Shown here: in pieces, positions 5,559 to 43,263 of the stretch
How positions within the stretch are numbered: position 1 is the stretch's first letter
How the letters are laid out: each line of letters starts with the position of its first letter
Source: Leeia oryzae DSM 17879
Lineage (GTDB): Bacteria; Pseudomonadota; Gammaproteobacteria; Burkholderiales; Leeiaceae
Length of the DNA: 64,000 nt
Direction: 5' to 3'
NCBI RefSeq assembly: GCF_000376945.1
Contig: NZ_AQXU01000013.1
Coordinates: 1 to 64,000 of the forward strand
Translations under genes and position numbers: made by a program
The notes under the pieces: generated by a model
What the model was told of the DNA's origin: nothing
Seen by the model: only the letters and a program-made list of their open reading frames with translations
The model's database searches: none

Positions 5559-5870
5559 ATTGTCCTCCGCGTGGCCATCTGTGTCCGGGAGTATACGTCA
5601 CTCCGCAGGGGTGAAAAAGCAAATGTTTGAAAATGTTATTGTACGGATCATATGCTTATTTTGTGGGGGTCTGCACTATCATGTGCTGACTTACTGTGTG
5701 CGCCAACCTGTTTTCAATATTCTACGCTTATGTCTGTCACCGTACAGATGCACCACTGTGAAGAGGCCATGATCAGGTATCCGGTCTTGTGCATGTCGTT
5801 ATTGAAACCCGGGATAAGCTGAACACAGAGATTAGCTTTGACATGTGCACCTTCTTCAGGAGGCATCCCT
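5559..5870. promoter_or_regulatory. Divergent intergenic region before the crystallin-like gene
   Basis: 312 bases without a credible gene. It must hold the promoter of the minus-strand diguanylate cyclase and that of the plus-strand crystallin-like gene. The only clear signal is the shared stress-island element at 5727-5748. A strong Shine-Dalgarno (CAGGAGG at 5857-5863) precedes the ATG at 5871. Confidence 0.5.
5727..5748 (+). promoter_or_regulatory. Stress-island operator, site A
   Basis: 22-bp element of pattern CTTATGT-N2-G-N2-A-N-CGTAC-N-GA, 122 bases before the ATG of the crystallin/glycine-zipper gene. It matches site B (6782-6803) at 16 of 22 positions, and the outer half-sites CTTATGT and CGTAC are identical. 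Confidence 0.5.
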
Positions 5871-6781: not shown

Positions 6782-6803
6782 CTTATGTACGCTAGCGTAC
6801 CGA
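6782..6803 (+). promoter_or_regulatory. Stress-island operator, site B
   Basis: Best copy of the element, containing the perfect 14-bp palindrome GTACGCTAGCGTAC at 6787-6800 with CTTAT before and CGA after. It lies 113 bases before the BON lipoprotein start. Site C at 22766-22787 is identical over 21 of 22 bases, although the surrounding DNA is not duplicated. Confidence 0.6.
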
Positions 6804-6916: not shown

Positions 6917-7231
6917 ATGAAACCCATCGGTAAATATCTTTCTGCATTTTTCATCGCTTTTTCGTTGCTGTCTGTTGCGGGCTGCGGTTCCATGCACCGG
7001 CATCAGGAAACGGGCGCCTACATGGACGACAGGACCCTTAGCATCAAGGTGAAAGAGGCCATTTTTGATGACCCGACGCTGAAGGTGTTCGAAATCAATG
7101 TCACGACTTATCAGGGGGTAGTGCAACTGAGCGGATTTGTCCGCTCGCGGACCGATGCAAATCGGGCCATGACGGTTGCACGCAATGTCCGCGGGGTCAC
7201 GAACGTAGTGGATGACATGCAGATCAAGTAA
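6917..7231 (+). CDS. BON-domain lipoprotein (OsmY-like), copy 1
   Basis: 104 residues from the ATG at 6917, with TGGAGG 10 bases upstream. The lipoprotein signal has lipobox SVAGC (Cys23). One BON domain follows at about 40-104 (VKEAIFDDPTLKVFEINVTTYQGVVQLSGFV ... ARNVRGVTNVVDDM). BON proteins are periplasmic and bind phospholipid surfaces; OsmY is induced by osmotic and stationary stress. The paralogue at 23323-23637 has the same length and about 60% identity, so the two derive from a duplication. Its promoter region holds operator site B. Confidence 0.93.
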   Translation: MKPIGKYLSAFFIAFSLLSVAGCGSMHRHQETGAYMDDRTLSIKVKEAIFDDPTLKVFEINVTTYQGVVQLSGFVRSRTDANRAMTVARNVRGVTNVVDDMQIK

Positions 7232-16246: not shown

Positions 16247-16356
16247 TATGTGGGATGGCGAACCGACGCCACACGGCTTTACTGTCACAGTGGATAAGCA
16301 ACACCGGCCTCGTTAAATCCGCATGTGGCGGATTCCAGAGGTCATCAGAGGCAATC

Positions 16357-16533
16357 ATGACCAAGCAAAACGAACAACACCACCCCAAAATCCCGGACAT
16401 CCATCCGACGACTGCCGTTCCTGCGGCACCATCTCCTTTTCCGGGGCTGGCCACCAAGCTCGGCGTCAAACCGCCGGGGCGACGCATTCTGCATCTGCCG
16501 CACCAGCAAGGCCGTGCAAGAGGCAGTAAATAA
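16357..16533 (+). CDS. Small Pro-rich basic protein of unknown function
   Basis: 58 residues from the ATG at 16357 (AGAGG 5 bases upstream). An upstream in-frame ATG at 16243 overlaps the glucan synthase end and is less likely. Composition is rich in Pro, His and Lys, with no signal peptide or membrane segment. The presence of a strong terminator 7 bases after its stop supports it as a real transcript. No family recognised. Confidence 0.5.
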   Translation: MTKQNEQHHPKIPDIHPTTAVPAAPSPFPGLATKLGVKPPGRRILHLPHQQGRARGSK

Positions 16534-20844: not shown

Positions 20845-21192
20845 GGGGTGTCCTTTAAAAGCGCGTAAAGCCAGGTTGGCGTAACCGTCTTCTCTGTGTG
20901 CGCTCCCGTGTCTGAAAGTCATGGGGCGCACTTTGTATAAGGACAGCGTAGGCGTATGCCATGCACAGTTCGGTGCGCCAGCGAACACATTGGGTAAATT
21001 AATGCGGGAGACGGTAGCTGAAGGGTGCGCCAGTGGCCGATCAACGCCATCCATGACGGCGCTGACGCAGGCGTATCGGGCTTGGTTCGTTAGCGAACAG
21101 ACGGCTATGCGCTTTGGTTGCATTGTCATAGCTGTGACAACCTCCCCGATACGCCACATGTTGCGGCAAGCGGGGCTCAGTCAGAGGCTTGT
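20845..21192. other. Intergenic region, no gene seen
   Basis: 348 bases. It should contain the promoter of the minus-strand collagen-like lipoprotein. Only short inverted repeats are visible (GTTCG-TTAG-CGAAC at 21085-21098). The open frames across it have poor codon quality and no ribosome site. Confidence 0.4.
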
Positions 21193-21705: not shown

Positions 21706-22410
21706 ATGCTACCAACGCTGGTTCCAGAAAATAATGGTCTGCTTTCCGCCTTGCCGCACAAAGATCGCCAACGATTACTGGCGTTGTGTGAACCGGTAAC
21801 ACTGGCTTTTGCCGACGTACTTTCCAGCCCTGGCGAGCGGATTCGTCAGGTGTATTTTCCGACGGGCAGCATTATTGCCCTGAGTGCGCCCCTGGATGAC
21901 CAGGTCAGCCTGGGGGTAGGGTTGGTGGGGGACGAAGGCATGCTGGGTGTTTCGCTCATTCTGGGCGTCAGCCGTGCCCTGCAACATGCTGTCGTACAGG
22001 GGGCCGGCTCTGCCTTGCGCATGGACCGGGTACCTTTCTGTCAGGCGCTCAAGCACAGCGAACCCCTGCAAGACGCACTAAAGCACTATTTGTATGTGCT
22101 CATGGTTCAGCTGGGCCAGAGTGCCGCCTGCTCGCACTTTCATGTGGTGGTGGTGCGTTTGGCGCGCTGGTTGCTGATGACGCAAGAGCGAGCCCATTCG
22201 GACCATTTTCATGTGACCCATGAGTTTCTGGCTGGCATGCTGGGGGTACGCCGTGTCGGCATTACCAAGGCAGCCATGGCGCTACATGACCAGCATCTGA
22301 TCAGCTATAGCCGGGGCGAAATCCGGATACTGGATCAGCACGGGCTGGAGGATGCGTCCTGCGGGTGTTACGAGGCCGACAAGGCCATCTATGAACGTCT
22401 GATGGGCTAG
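21706..22410 (+). CDS. Crp/Fnr-family transcription regulator, copy 1
   Basis: 234 residues; GAGGG precedes the ATG by 5 bases. Residues 10-130 form the cupin-like cNMP-binding fold (HVYFPTGS-type strand IRQVYFPTGSIIALS), but the usual phosphate-binding cassette is absent (GVSLILGVSRALQHAVVQ), so cAMP is probably not the ligand. No Cys cluster for an Fe-S centre. The C-terminal HTH is at about 168-200, with recognition helix around GVRRVGITKAA. A second regulator in the island (29845-30552) has the nearly matching GVRREGVTEAA, so both may bind related DNA sites. It is likely a local controller of the stress island. Confidence 0.88.
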   Translation: MLPTLVPENNGLLSALPHKDRQRLLALCEPVTLAFADVLSSPGERIRQVYFPTGSIIALSAPLDDQVSLGVGLVGDEGMLGVSLILGVSRALQHAVVQGAGSALRMDRVPFCQALKHSEPLQDALKHYLYVLMVQLGQSAACSHFHVVVVRLARWLLMTQERAHSDHFHVTHEFLAGMLGVRRVGITKAAMALHDQHLISYSRGEIRILDQHGLEDASCGCYEADKAIYERLMG

Positions 22411-22765: not shown

Positions 22766-22787
22766 TTTATGTACGCTAGCGTACCGA
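22766..22787 (+). promoter_or_regulatory. Stress-island operator, site C
   Basis: Second copy of the element with the perfect palindrome GTACGCTAGCGTAC (22771-22784), differing from site B only in the first base. It lies 158 bases before the GlsB-like gene. Confidence 0.6.
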
Positions 22788-27043: not shown

Positions 27044-27421
27044 TTACGGTCCCACCGGGTCATTGCCTGCCGTCAATGTATAGATATCGTGCCGTAGTGC
27101 ATTTCTGATGCTTTCCGCTTTGGCGGCATTGGCTTTGCCTTGGGCCAGCCGCGCATCCACTTCTGCTTCTTTGGCCAGCGCGCTGGCCATCTGATAATCT
27201 TTTTGTGCCAATGCAGCTCGCGCACTGGCCAGTTTTTCTTTTGCCAGATTCATTTCAAACCCGGCATGCTGTGTCGCATGAAGCGTTTCGGCCTGGTTCA
27301 TGGCTGCGCTTGCCATCGCAATATCCCGTCTGGCTGGCGTGGCCAGGCTGCTACAGCCTGCCATCAGCTGCAAAAACAGCGTGACCAGTAATGCTGATCC
27401 CCATCGTGCTTGTTTCTTCAT
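27044..27421 (-). CDS. DUF4398 lipoprotein
   Basis: 125 residues from the ATG at 27421 (GGGG 8 bases upstream); a longer in-frame start at 27529 has no ribosome site. Lipobox LMAGC (Cys23). The mature part is helical with Ala-rich heptads (MASAAMNQAETLHATQHAGFEMN; AKEKLASARAALAQKD), typical of DUF4398. It probably lies at the periplasmic face of the outer membrane and partners the adjacent OmpA protein. Operator site F lies 89 bases upstream. Confidence 0.88.
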   Translation of the reverse strand: MKKQARWGSALLVTLFLQLMAGCSSLATPARRDIAMASAAMNQAETLHATQHAGFEMNLAKEKLASARAALAQKDYQMASALAKEAEVDARLAQGKANAAKAESIRNALRHDIYTLTAGNDPVGP

Positions 27422-27510
27422 GGTGTTTCCCCGGAAAAAGCCGCCCTTGACGTTAAATCCGTCCGGCCCTTCTTCAGTAGCTACAGTTATAGGCTGCTTT
27501 AACAGATGCA

Positions 27511-27532
27511 TCGGTACGTTGACGCACATAGC
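27511..27532 (-). promoter_or_regulatory. Stress-island operator, site F
   Basis: On the minus strand this reads GCTATGT-GCGTCAA-CGTACCGA and matches site B at 16 of 22 positions, with TATGT and CGTACCGA intact. It lies 89 bases before the DUF4398 lipoprotein start, in the same orientation relative to its gene as sites A-C. Confidence 0.5.
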
Positions 27533-27683
27533 GTCGTCACGATGTGTTCTTTACTGGCAGGCATATCCGCTTGTGTTTCCTACCGCACCGACAGAACTGA
27601 CCGACTCACGGTTTCATAAGAGGGTTAATGGACCTCGCTACGCATCTTTGATCTGTCAATGTCCGGAATGAAAGGAGGGCAGG

Positions 27684-28666: not shown

Positions 28667-29479
28667 TCAGGTGCCATCCATGCGGCCATGGCAGCTGGCC
28701 TCGAATAACGCGCGGACACGTCCTTCGGCTTTGTCTGTCCATTTGGCCAGATGGGTCATGCTGCCAAGGTCACTGTGCTCTTCGCAAACCATATAGGCAT
28801 CTTTGAGAAACGCGATCAGCAGTTTGTTGTCTTCGCGCAGTTCGACCAGCATTTCCTGCACGGACAGAGTGTCGGCATCGTTATCCAGCAGGCGCTGTTT
28901 CTGGCTGATGTGTCCGATAGAGCGCAGGGTATTTCTGCCAACCTTGCGGACACGTTCTGCGATGAGGTCAGTCATGCCGATCAGTTGCATGGCCTGCTGA
29001 CCCAGCATGACATGGTAAGCAAAGAAATCCGGGCCATGCATGTGCCAGCGAAAGCCCTGGGTTTTCAGGTACAAGGCAAAAACATCGGCTAGCAGCGGGT
29101 TGAGGACGCTTGTTATGTCATTACTTGCCAGCGGATGAAAATCCGTCTGCATGACCTGCCGGACAATATGTGGCCGGACCTGCGGATGCGGCGTGCGTGC
29201 GTCACCGGTCGGGATGGACGTGATGATGGGGTGGATATCTTCTTTTGTATTGATGGTGGTACATACAGCCTGCGAGTCGTGATCATCTTCTATCCCGCAG
29301 GGCAAACCACTGAAGAAGTAGGGCGTCGGGATGATGCCTGCCTCTGCCGGGGTGGTCTGCGTTGGGTCGAGGGTTTCTGGCATCCGCTGGTTGGGTTGCC
29401 GCGCTTGTTCAGGGGTCCTGAACTGTGACCAGCGTCGGTCATTGTGTGGCTGTGGGGTAGAAATAAGGTTGGTCATCAT
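28667..29479 (-). CDS. dps: Dps-family ferritin with long N-terminal extension
   Basis: 270 residues from the ATG at 29479, chosen because GGAG lies 7 bases upstream. The last 155 residues are a Dps domain: LLADVFALYLKTQGFRWHMHGPDFFAYHVMLGQQ ... MTDLIAERVRKVG and a C-terminal helix. The first about 110 residues are Pro/Thr/Gln-rich and probably disordered. An internal ATG at 29152 (GGCAGG just upstream) would give a normal-sized Dps. His and Asp/Glu of the inter-subunit ferroxidase site are mostly kept (WH, YH, TD, AE), but the position four after the second His is Gly where E. coli Dps has Asp. It would protect DNA and sequester iron under oxidative stress. Confidence 0.82.
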   Translation of the reverse strand: MMTNLISTPQPHNDRRWSQFRTPEQARQPNQRMPETLDPTQTTPAEAGIIPTPYFFSGLPCGIEDDHDSQAVCTTINTKEDIHPIITSIPTGDARTPHPQVRPHIVRQVMQTDFHPLASNDITSVLNPLLADVFALYLKTQGFRWHMHGPDFFAYHVMLGQQAMQLIGMTDLIAERVRKVGRNTLRSIGHISQKQRLLDNDADTLSVQEMLVELREDNKLLIAFLKDAYMVCEEHSDLGSMTHLAKWTDKAEGRVRALFEASCHGRMDGT

Positions 29480-29844
29480 GGGTTCTCCAGTATTGCGCAG
29501 GGTTTGGTGAAGGAAATGAAATGAAGGGAAGGACGGCTGAGTAGCGGTATGGTTCATCGTGCCACAGTCACCTATTGGATTCTGTGCGCTGACGAACGCA
29601 GGGTTTCTGATTGGTCCGGGCATGGTCAAGCATCAAGAAAATACCAACACAAGGCAGAGATACCGGTTGTACGGTTACCAAACCGGTATGATGGTGGTAT
29701 GCTGGACTTATGTGCCTTAGCGTACATAAGTCCAGCAAGCCTCCATCTATCCATGTGCGATACTGCACAAAGCATGTTGTCATCGTCAGTTGTCTGTACC
29801 CGTAAAGCGTTAGTTTTTTCATTCATATGACGCAGGAGATGCCT
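29480..29844. promoter_or_regulatory. Divergent regulatory region dps-like / crp-like
   Basis: 365 bases with no gene. It contains operator site D inside a 13-bp perfect inverted repeat (29701-29736), and smaller symmetric sequences such as ACCGGTTGTACGGTTACCAAACCGGT nearby (written 29661-29686 in part). Both divergent genes could be controlled from here. Confidence 0.5.
29701..29736. promoter_or_regulatory. Stress-island operator, site D, in a 13-bp perfect palindrome
   Basis: Arms GCTGGACTTATGT (29701-29713) and its exact complement (29724-29736) with loop GCCTTAGCGT. The 22-bp element itself is 29707-29728 (CTTATGT ... TAGCGTAC). It sits 116 bases before the Crp-like start at 29845 and 228 bases from the dps-like start on the other strand. 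The symmetry fits a dimeric regulator acting on both genes, with autoregulation of the Crp-like gene possible. Confidence 0.55.
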
Positions 29845-30552
29845 ATGGCACCCAGACAGAATCAATTGTTATCCGTTCTGCCACCAGAGCAATGGGAACG
29901 GATTCAGGATCAGCTTGAGCTGATCGACATGCCGCTTGGAAAAGTGATTTATGAGTCAGGCAGCAAGCTGTCTCATGTGTACTTTCCGACTACCGCCATC
30001 GTGTCTTTACTCTACGTGATGGAAAACGGTGCCTCGGCCGAAATCGCTGTGGTCGGCTTTGAAGGCATTGTCGGCGTGTCGCTCTTCATGGGGGGGGAAA
30101 CTACCCCCAGCCGGGCGGTGGTCCAAAGTGCCGGCCAAGGTTACCGGCTAAAAGCGAGTCTTCTGATGCAGGAGTTCAACCGGGGCGGGCCAGTCATGCA
30201 CTTGCTGTTGCGATACACCCAGGCATTGATTACCCAGATGTCGCAAACCGCGGTGTGCAACCGTCACCATTCACTTGACCAGCAACTGTGCCGCTGGCTG
30301 TTGCTGAGTCTGGACCGGCTGGCATCCAACGACCTGGTCATGACACAAGAGCTGATCGCCAATATGCTAGGAGTGCGCCGTGAGGGTGTGACAGAAGCCG
30401 CCGGACATTTGCAGGAAGCAGGACTGATTGCCTATCGTCGTGGCCAGATTACCGTGCTGGATCGCGCAGGTCTGGAAAAACGCACCTGCGAATGCTATGC
30501 CGTGGTGAAAAAAGAGTACGACCGCCTGTTACCCCTGACTACCGCCACCTGA
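29845..30552 (+). CDS. Crp/Fnr-family transcription regulator, copy 2
   Basis: 235 residues from the third ATG at 29845, six bases after AGGAG (29834-29838). Residues 10-130 form the cNMP-binding fold (LSHVYFPTTAIVSLLYVMENG), again lacking the classical cAMP cassette. The HTH is at about 170-200 (TQELIANMLGVRREGVTEAAGHLQEAGLI). No Fe-S cysteines near the N-terminus; the two Cys at CECYA lie at the C-terminus, a feature shared with copy 1 (CGCYE). A G8 run at 30090-30097 lies inside the coding region. Site D upstream suggests self-control. Confidence 0.9.
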   Translation: MAPRQNQLLSVLPPEQWERIQDQLELIDMPLGKVIYESGSKLSHVYFPTTAIVSLLYVMENGASAEIAVVGFEGIVGVSLFMGGETTPSRAVVQSAGQGYRLKASLLMQEFNRGGPVMHLLLRYTQALITQMSQTAVCNRHHSLDQQLCRWLLLSLDRLASNDLVMTQELIANMLGVRREGVTEAAGHLQEAGLIAYRRGQITVLDRAGLEKRTCECYAVVKKEYDRLLPLTTAT

Positions 30553-43216: not shown

Positions 43217-43263
43217 AAACACCAAGGGCCGGTTGTGAACATCACAACCGGCCCTTGGTGTTT
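43217..43263. terminator. 22-bp perfect bidirectional terminator
   Basis: Perfect 22-bp arms (43217-43238 and 43242-43263) around a 3-base loop ACA; stem starts AAACACCAAGGGCC and ends with TTT. It separates the convergent cysB-type and DHH genes and works in both directions by symmetry. Confidence 0.92.

Follow-up and report, generated by a model that had tools for sequence, protein, structure and literature searches.

Between two divergent genes of Leeia oryzae DSM 17879 lies a long palindrome, site D. The question it raises is whether D serves the regulator gene on its right, the Dps-like gene on its left, both genes together, or an RNA read from it, and why its arms are so long. The window is the whole stretch of DNA that was analyzed, 64,000 nucleotides in length, and its features are collected in Table 1.

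The palindrome and its surroundings

The preliminary description placed a 13-bp perfect palindrome at 29701-29736, and the palindrome is real (GCTGGACTTATGT-GCCTTAGCGT-ACATAAGTCCAGC, arms fully complementary). The arms in fact reach 14 bp, or 24 nt if imperfect pairing is allowed. The flanking genes had been called dps-like and crp-like; the left gene encodes a ferritin/Dps domain and the right gene a Crp-type HTH domain, so both names stand.

By itself, a perfect inverted repeat is nothing unusual in this genome: 21 with arms of at least 12 bp occur in 217,690 bases, approximately one per 10 kb. Many of the 21 resemble terminators by our reading. The longest, at 43217-43263, is perfect, with 22-bp arms and a 3-base center, and resembles a bidirectional terminator.

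An exact search of the genome with the D arm returns only D's own two places, and with up to two mismatches there are 43 places versus 82 for the reversed pattern. A repeated mobile element end is rejected, as the D arms are not repeated elsewhere in the genome. Among 399 genomes of the order, the intergenic stretch that holds D matches its own genome and none of the 398 others. The separate palindrome that abuts the long inverted repeat occurs at a single place in the genome at up to two mismatches, and could be an operator, on the dps side, for a different regulator.

Table 1. Features of the window in and around site D and at the other operator-like sites.
Feature	Position	Strand	Details
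Operator-like site ahead of crystallin/glycine-zipper gene (5838)	5729-5748	+	score 16.2
Operator ahead of BON-domain gene	6784-6803	+	TATGTACGCTAGCGTACCGA; score 24.1; TAGCCT at +30
Weak site within BON-domain frame	7136-7155	.	score 11.5; may be chance
Operator-like site	16247-16266	+	score 17.4; immediately past stop of 2957-aa frame
Operator	20970-20989	-	score 21.7; TACGCT at +30 toward collagen-like lipoprotein, - strand
Operator-like site	21082-21101	.	score 21.5
Second Crp/Fnr-type regulator (paralogue)	21706-22410	+	37% identical
Operator	22768-22787	+	score 24.1; TAGCCT at +30; upstream of small membrane-protein-like frame starting 22947
Operator-like site	27511-27530	.	score 20.2; between divergent genes 27044-27529 (-) and 27684 (+)
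Weaker operator-like site	27572-27591	.	score 13.4
Dps-like ferritin-domain protein, long N-terminal extension	28667-29479	-	Pfam Ferritin 55.3 bits, residues 126-247 of 270
Operator-like site, dps side	29581-29600	-	TGCGTTCGTCAGCGCACAGA toward dps; score 19.4
Separate palindrome	29660-29689	.	ATACCGGTT-N12-AACCGGTAT; abuts long inverted repeat
Imperfect inverted repeat	29690-29747	.	24-nt arms (29690-29713 / 29724-29747), 21/24 pairs; potential hairpin
Perfect palindrome	29700-29737	.	14-bp arms (29700-29713 / 29724-29737), 10-nt center
Operator D core	29709-29728	+	TATGTGCCTTAGCGTACATA; center 29718/29719; matrix score 23.2
Predicted -10 element of regulator gene	29748-29753	+	TATCCA; 30-35 bases right of D center, family geometry
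Operator-like site	29752-29771	.	CATGTGCGATACTGCACAAA; score 18.0; overlaps predicted -10 end and start; possible brake
Crp/Fnr-type regulator, 235 aa	29845-30552	+	HTH_Crp_2; Foldseek matches GlxR, CRP, FNR, NtcA

The regulator and its paralogue

The regulator on the right is a member of the Crp/Fnr family by its HTH domain, sequence, and fold. HTH_Crp_2 scores 57.1 bits in Pfam (cut-off 27), and the cyclic-nucleotide-type beta-roll scores 26.7 bits as cNMP_binding (cut-off 27.5). The structure model, of medium confidence (mean pLDDT 66) and applied to the fold class only, matches whole Crp/Fnr chains in Foldseek. NtcA, GlxR, FNR, and other solved Crp/Fnr structures are matched in both sequence and fold, at 13-23% identity among the fold matches listed. 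NtcA identity is ruled out, with 30.6 bits versus the NCBI cut-off of 244.95. The start is likely the ATG at 29845, which by reading follows AGGAG; translation might instead begin upstream, at the ATG at 29827.

The nearest named record to the protein is from Uliginosibacterium gangwonense, and the gene is present in one of the five genomes of the family of G033. A plasmid search matches only the gene part, at 60-80% identity (8 of 43 records listed), and public plasmid records label the relatives "Crp/Fnr family transcriptional regulator." An alignment of 15 regulators, the paralogue at 21706 among them, shows no variation at cysteines 138, 215, and 217 (C-terminal CxCY), nor does a 24-sequence set. 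They might form a metal or redox sensor, which is a lead only.

The operator core and its family

The D core fits the motif TATGTGCG-N4-CGCACATA. Of 185 regions taken from other genomes, 133 carry this motif ahead of the orthologous Crp/Fnr-type gene; the other 52 lack a site at the cut-off. The consensus TATGTGCGNNNNCGCACATA has 16 letters, and a site is called when at least 12 of the 16 agree. By this measure the first set holds a site in 80 of 101 upstream regions (window included). Markov controls average 2.15 such regions and never exceed 4, and the first 450 nt of the same genes hold none. The second set is composed of 85 other loci, with no upstream stretch identical to any in the first, and 54 of these have a site versus 1.2 in controls.

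Dyad counting, which tallies spaced inverted repeats and is blind to the motif of the window, gives the same answer ahead of 100 orthologous genes, 7 of whose regions are in the wrong orientation. GTGCG-N4-CGCAC ranks first, and TATGT-N10-ACATA, the core of D, is among the top dyads. Site center and aligned coding start are separated by a median of 116 bases (first set) or 116.5 bases (second set); the center of D lies 108 bases ahead of 29827.

On these comparisons, the D core is the predicted docking site of a Crp/Fnr-type regulator. The element appears to be of an ordinary kind and is well supported by comparison. No description of the family motif was found among the open-licence papers searched.

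The abundance of long perfect inverted repeats in this genome would permit a palindrome that arose by chance and has no regulatory meaning. The core nevertheless scores 23.2 with a matrix trained on external sites and sits at the usual place of the family, and a chance origin is close to negligible.

Promoter geometry and probable self-activation

The sites of this family stand at a fixed distance from a -10 element. The pattern TAnnnT, with its offset counted from the site center (+30 to +35), begins at +30 in 51 of 133 non-window sites, while other offsets have a mean of 1.31 and a highest count of 7 (29 and 31 set aside). By set, the counts are 33 of 80 (first, window included) and 18 of 54 (second). 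Since a -10 hexamer spans -12 to -7, a hexamer that begins 30 bases from the center places the site center near -41.5, where class II activators bind. Class II promoters of E. coli CRP are alike; in the part of PMC5957442 that treats them, a two-fold symmetric TGT-N10-ACA site is centered at -41.5.

The same geometry recurs away from the regulator's own promoter. Such sites number 111 in 64 of 100 loci, with TAnnnT at +30 in 35 of them (both sides counted) and a next highest offset count of 4; a Markov control contains no sites. The motif, its placement ahead of the gene, the -10 distance, and the clustering are thus features established at the level of sequence comparison.

At D itself the geometry predicts a transcription start near 29760, and a regulator-side start downstream of the palindrome looks likely. 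The hexamer TATCCA keeps the TA and lacks the final T of TAnnnT, which leaves the case at D weaker than the case for the family. A simple sigma-70 scan of 29480-29860 returns no promoter-like site, which fits an activator-dependent promoter and equally fits no promoter.

The motif ahead of orthologous genes and the -10 at class II distance lead us to interpret D as a class II operator, from which the protein encoded at 29845-30552 probably activates its own gene. An operator with autoregulation had already been proposed for D. Comparison supports the proposal through the two counts above (133 of 185 and 51 of 133), with "probably" attached to the autoregulation.

We infer binding and activation along the following lines. 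A regulator dimer would bind the 20-bp core of D, overlapping the -35 region, and recruit RNA polymerase to the start near 29760, thereby raising its own production. The protein would also act, perhaps jointly with the paralogue at 21706, on about 11 further sites between 5.7 and 29.8 kb of the window, including the dps site at 29581 and the site at 29752, over the regulator's own start. The latter could limit the self-activation loop as a possible brake. Both paralogues are candidates to act at D and could share sites.

Some Crp/Fnr regulators repress themselves. FixK2 is termed negatively auto-repressed in a portion of PMC9104804, and D might by analogy be a repressor site for negative autoregulation of the regulator gene; the additional site at 29752, which covers the predicted start, would suit such a role. 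However, a center at -41.5, with the -10 held at one distance from it in 51 of the 133 sites, is activator geometry, and it is repeated at sites outside the regulator's own promoter. Negative autoregulation through D is improbable on this evidence.

The Dps-like neighbor

The Dps-like protein carries approximately 125 residues ahead of its ferritin domain. An N-terminal stretch of this length is unusual for Dps. A Dps gene adjoins the regulator in none of 80 named loci when flanks of as much as 3 kb are considered. The dps neighborhood is therefore a local arrangement, and D is to be assigned to the regulator.

The preliminary description suggested that D might be a master switch, taken here as a switch for both genes. 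D is symmetric and located between them, and a far-side -10 at +30 in 7 of 80 first-set sites suggests that two-way use may exist elsewhere in the family. Three points weigh against a shared operator, at which a single bound dimer would control both genes: toward dps, D has no TAnnnT at +30; dps is closer to a site of its own, 29581-29600; and the neighbor is absent from all 80 loci. The master switch is therefore weakly grounded, and joint control from D is decidedly unlikely.

The RNA hairpin question

The imperfect inverted repeat would fold strongly if transcribed. Its predicted RNA energy is -40.6 kcal/mol on the + strand and -35.8 on the - strand, with z-scores for the two strands of about -8.5 and -8.8; the DNA value is -21.5. 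An intrinsic terminator at D is not supported, as a simple scan of 29480-29860 finds no terminator-like site (GC-rich stem then T run). A known structured RNA is likewise not supported, with no Rfam match across the window at the gathering threshold.

Conserved flank symmetry across the family is rejected. The duplex energy of the flanks gives a permutation p of 0.0002 for all 137 sites and 0.011 minus three outliers, but the excess of -0.88 kcal/mol compares with -0.91 and -0.64 at centers shifted by -60 and -100. Because shifted centers are similarly strong, conserved flank pairing is dropped, and a position-wise test also finds no consistent pairing at positions 11-35 from the center in 80 family sites. 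The fold is more stable on the + strand by a mean of 1.2 kcal/mol (p 0.004); this bias is set aside as evidence, since shifted segments differ by 0.7 kcal/mol in the same direction.

A hairpin role in RNA, such as attenuation or stabilization of a leader, would be in keeping with the stability on both strands and with the neighboring palindrome at 29660-29689. Yet the predicted start lies downstream of the palindrome, the region has no terminator-like site, the stretch matches its own genome only among the 399, and some shifted centers show flank pairing at least as strong as that of the family sites. The earlier suggestion of a hairpin finds little support here, and such a role is highly improbable.

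Rarity and origin of the extra arms

Perfect pairs beyond the core were counted in 310 distinct sites with a matrix score of at least 14. The run is 0 in 214 sites, 1 in 69, 2 in 16, and 3 in 5; longer runs are 4, 5, and 7 in one site each, 8 in two, and 9 in one, the window. With a mean pair frequency of 0.29, the expected number of runs of at least 8 is 0.016, and three are seen, so long arms are unlikely by chance given the operator. Comparable arms occur in 4 of 310 sites (window, L072, L027, and L071), and the letters differ in each. The L071 operator, with 7 perfect extra pairs, lies 708 bases past the aligned start, near the end of the regulator gene. Relatives L056 and L032 have no extended arms.

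The extended arms are lineage-specific and outside the recognition code. The extra symmetry is most likely a lineage-specific by-product, e.g., of template switching at an imperfect palindrome. According to part of PMC8794818, a single template-switch event is able to generate an inverted repeat or to make an existing one perfect. The arms of D would resemble such one-step products at an imperfect palindrome.

Alternatively, the arms could be a selected DNA symmetry, giving tighter binding or a cruciform, and not a mutational by-product. The tail of the distribution would agree with selection: four sites have 7-9 perfect pairs with similar arm lengths in all four, only one site each has 5 or 4 below them, and runs of at least 8 outnumber the expectation (3 versus 0.016). 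What speaks against selection is that the arm letters differ across the four sites, that 80 family sites lack positional flank symmetry, that L056 and L032 lack the arms, and that the choice is post hoc. Selection for the arms is unlikely.

A more speculative proposal, of low probability, is that the window, L072, L027, and L071 make up a small operator class, re-made independently, with 7-9 extra pairs per side and unrelated letters. The 34-38 bp would then be an operator combined with an extruding cruciform or hairpin, supercoiling or read-through transcription would gate self-activation, and the site at 29752 would be the brake.

Other operator-like sites in the window

D had been described as the only clear site between the divergent genes, which is refuted by 29581-29600 and 29752-29771 (scores 19.4 and 18.0). 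The matrix used here was trained on 79 sites from other genomes, with the window excluded, and hits are taken at 10 or above. The window has 12 such hits, D ranking third by score. No hit occurs in the 53,690 remaining contig bases or in 100,000 bases taken from another contig. When the window is resampled three times under a Markov model, 0, 0, and 4 hits reach this level; at 12 or above, the window has 11 versus 0, 0, and 1.

A direct pattern search of the genome with one mismatch finds 29 places versus 32 for the reversed pattern, which is no excess. With zero mismatches it finds 7 places, 6 of them in the window, but this count is partly circular because the pattern was picked after viewing the window sites; the external matrix therefore serves as evidence.

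TAnnnT stands at +30 on either side in 3 of the 12 window sites (6784, 22768, and 20970). Two of the three, 6784-6803 and 22768-22787, are 16 kb apart and have identical 20 bases and an identical -10, TAGCCT, at equal distance. Toward dps, CACGAT (29556-29561) lies at class II distance from 29581-29600. Downstream of the site at 16247, a small frame with a GAGG-type ribosome site (16358-16532) is a possible unannotated target.

Relation to known systems and implications

The half-site of E. coli CRP is TGTGA, as given in part of PMC8465061, whereas the site here has TGTGC then G. SdrP (TTHA1359) of Thermus thermophilus is described in the same portion of PMC8465061 as a Crp/Fnr-family activator of oxidative-stress genes, probably class II. 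Its site, AWTGTRA(N)6TYACAWT, has the TGT-N10-ACA frame seen in D; it differs in its inner letters, which are A/T in SdrP, from a different lineage, and CG here.

The analysis yields a putative binding motif, a predicted promoter geometry, and candidate targets for a large Crp/Fnr clade in the Beta- and Gammaproteobacteria. "Stress" would be a provisional label for the target genes. Dps-like, BON, and glycine-zipper genes are among the candidate targets near the regulator, so a local program of cell-envelope and protection functions may be under the control of this clade.
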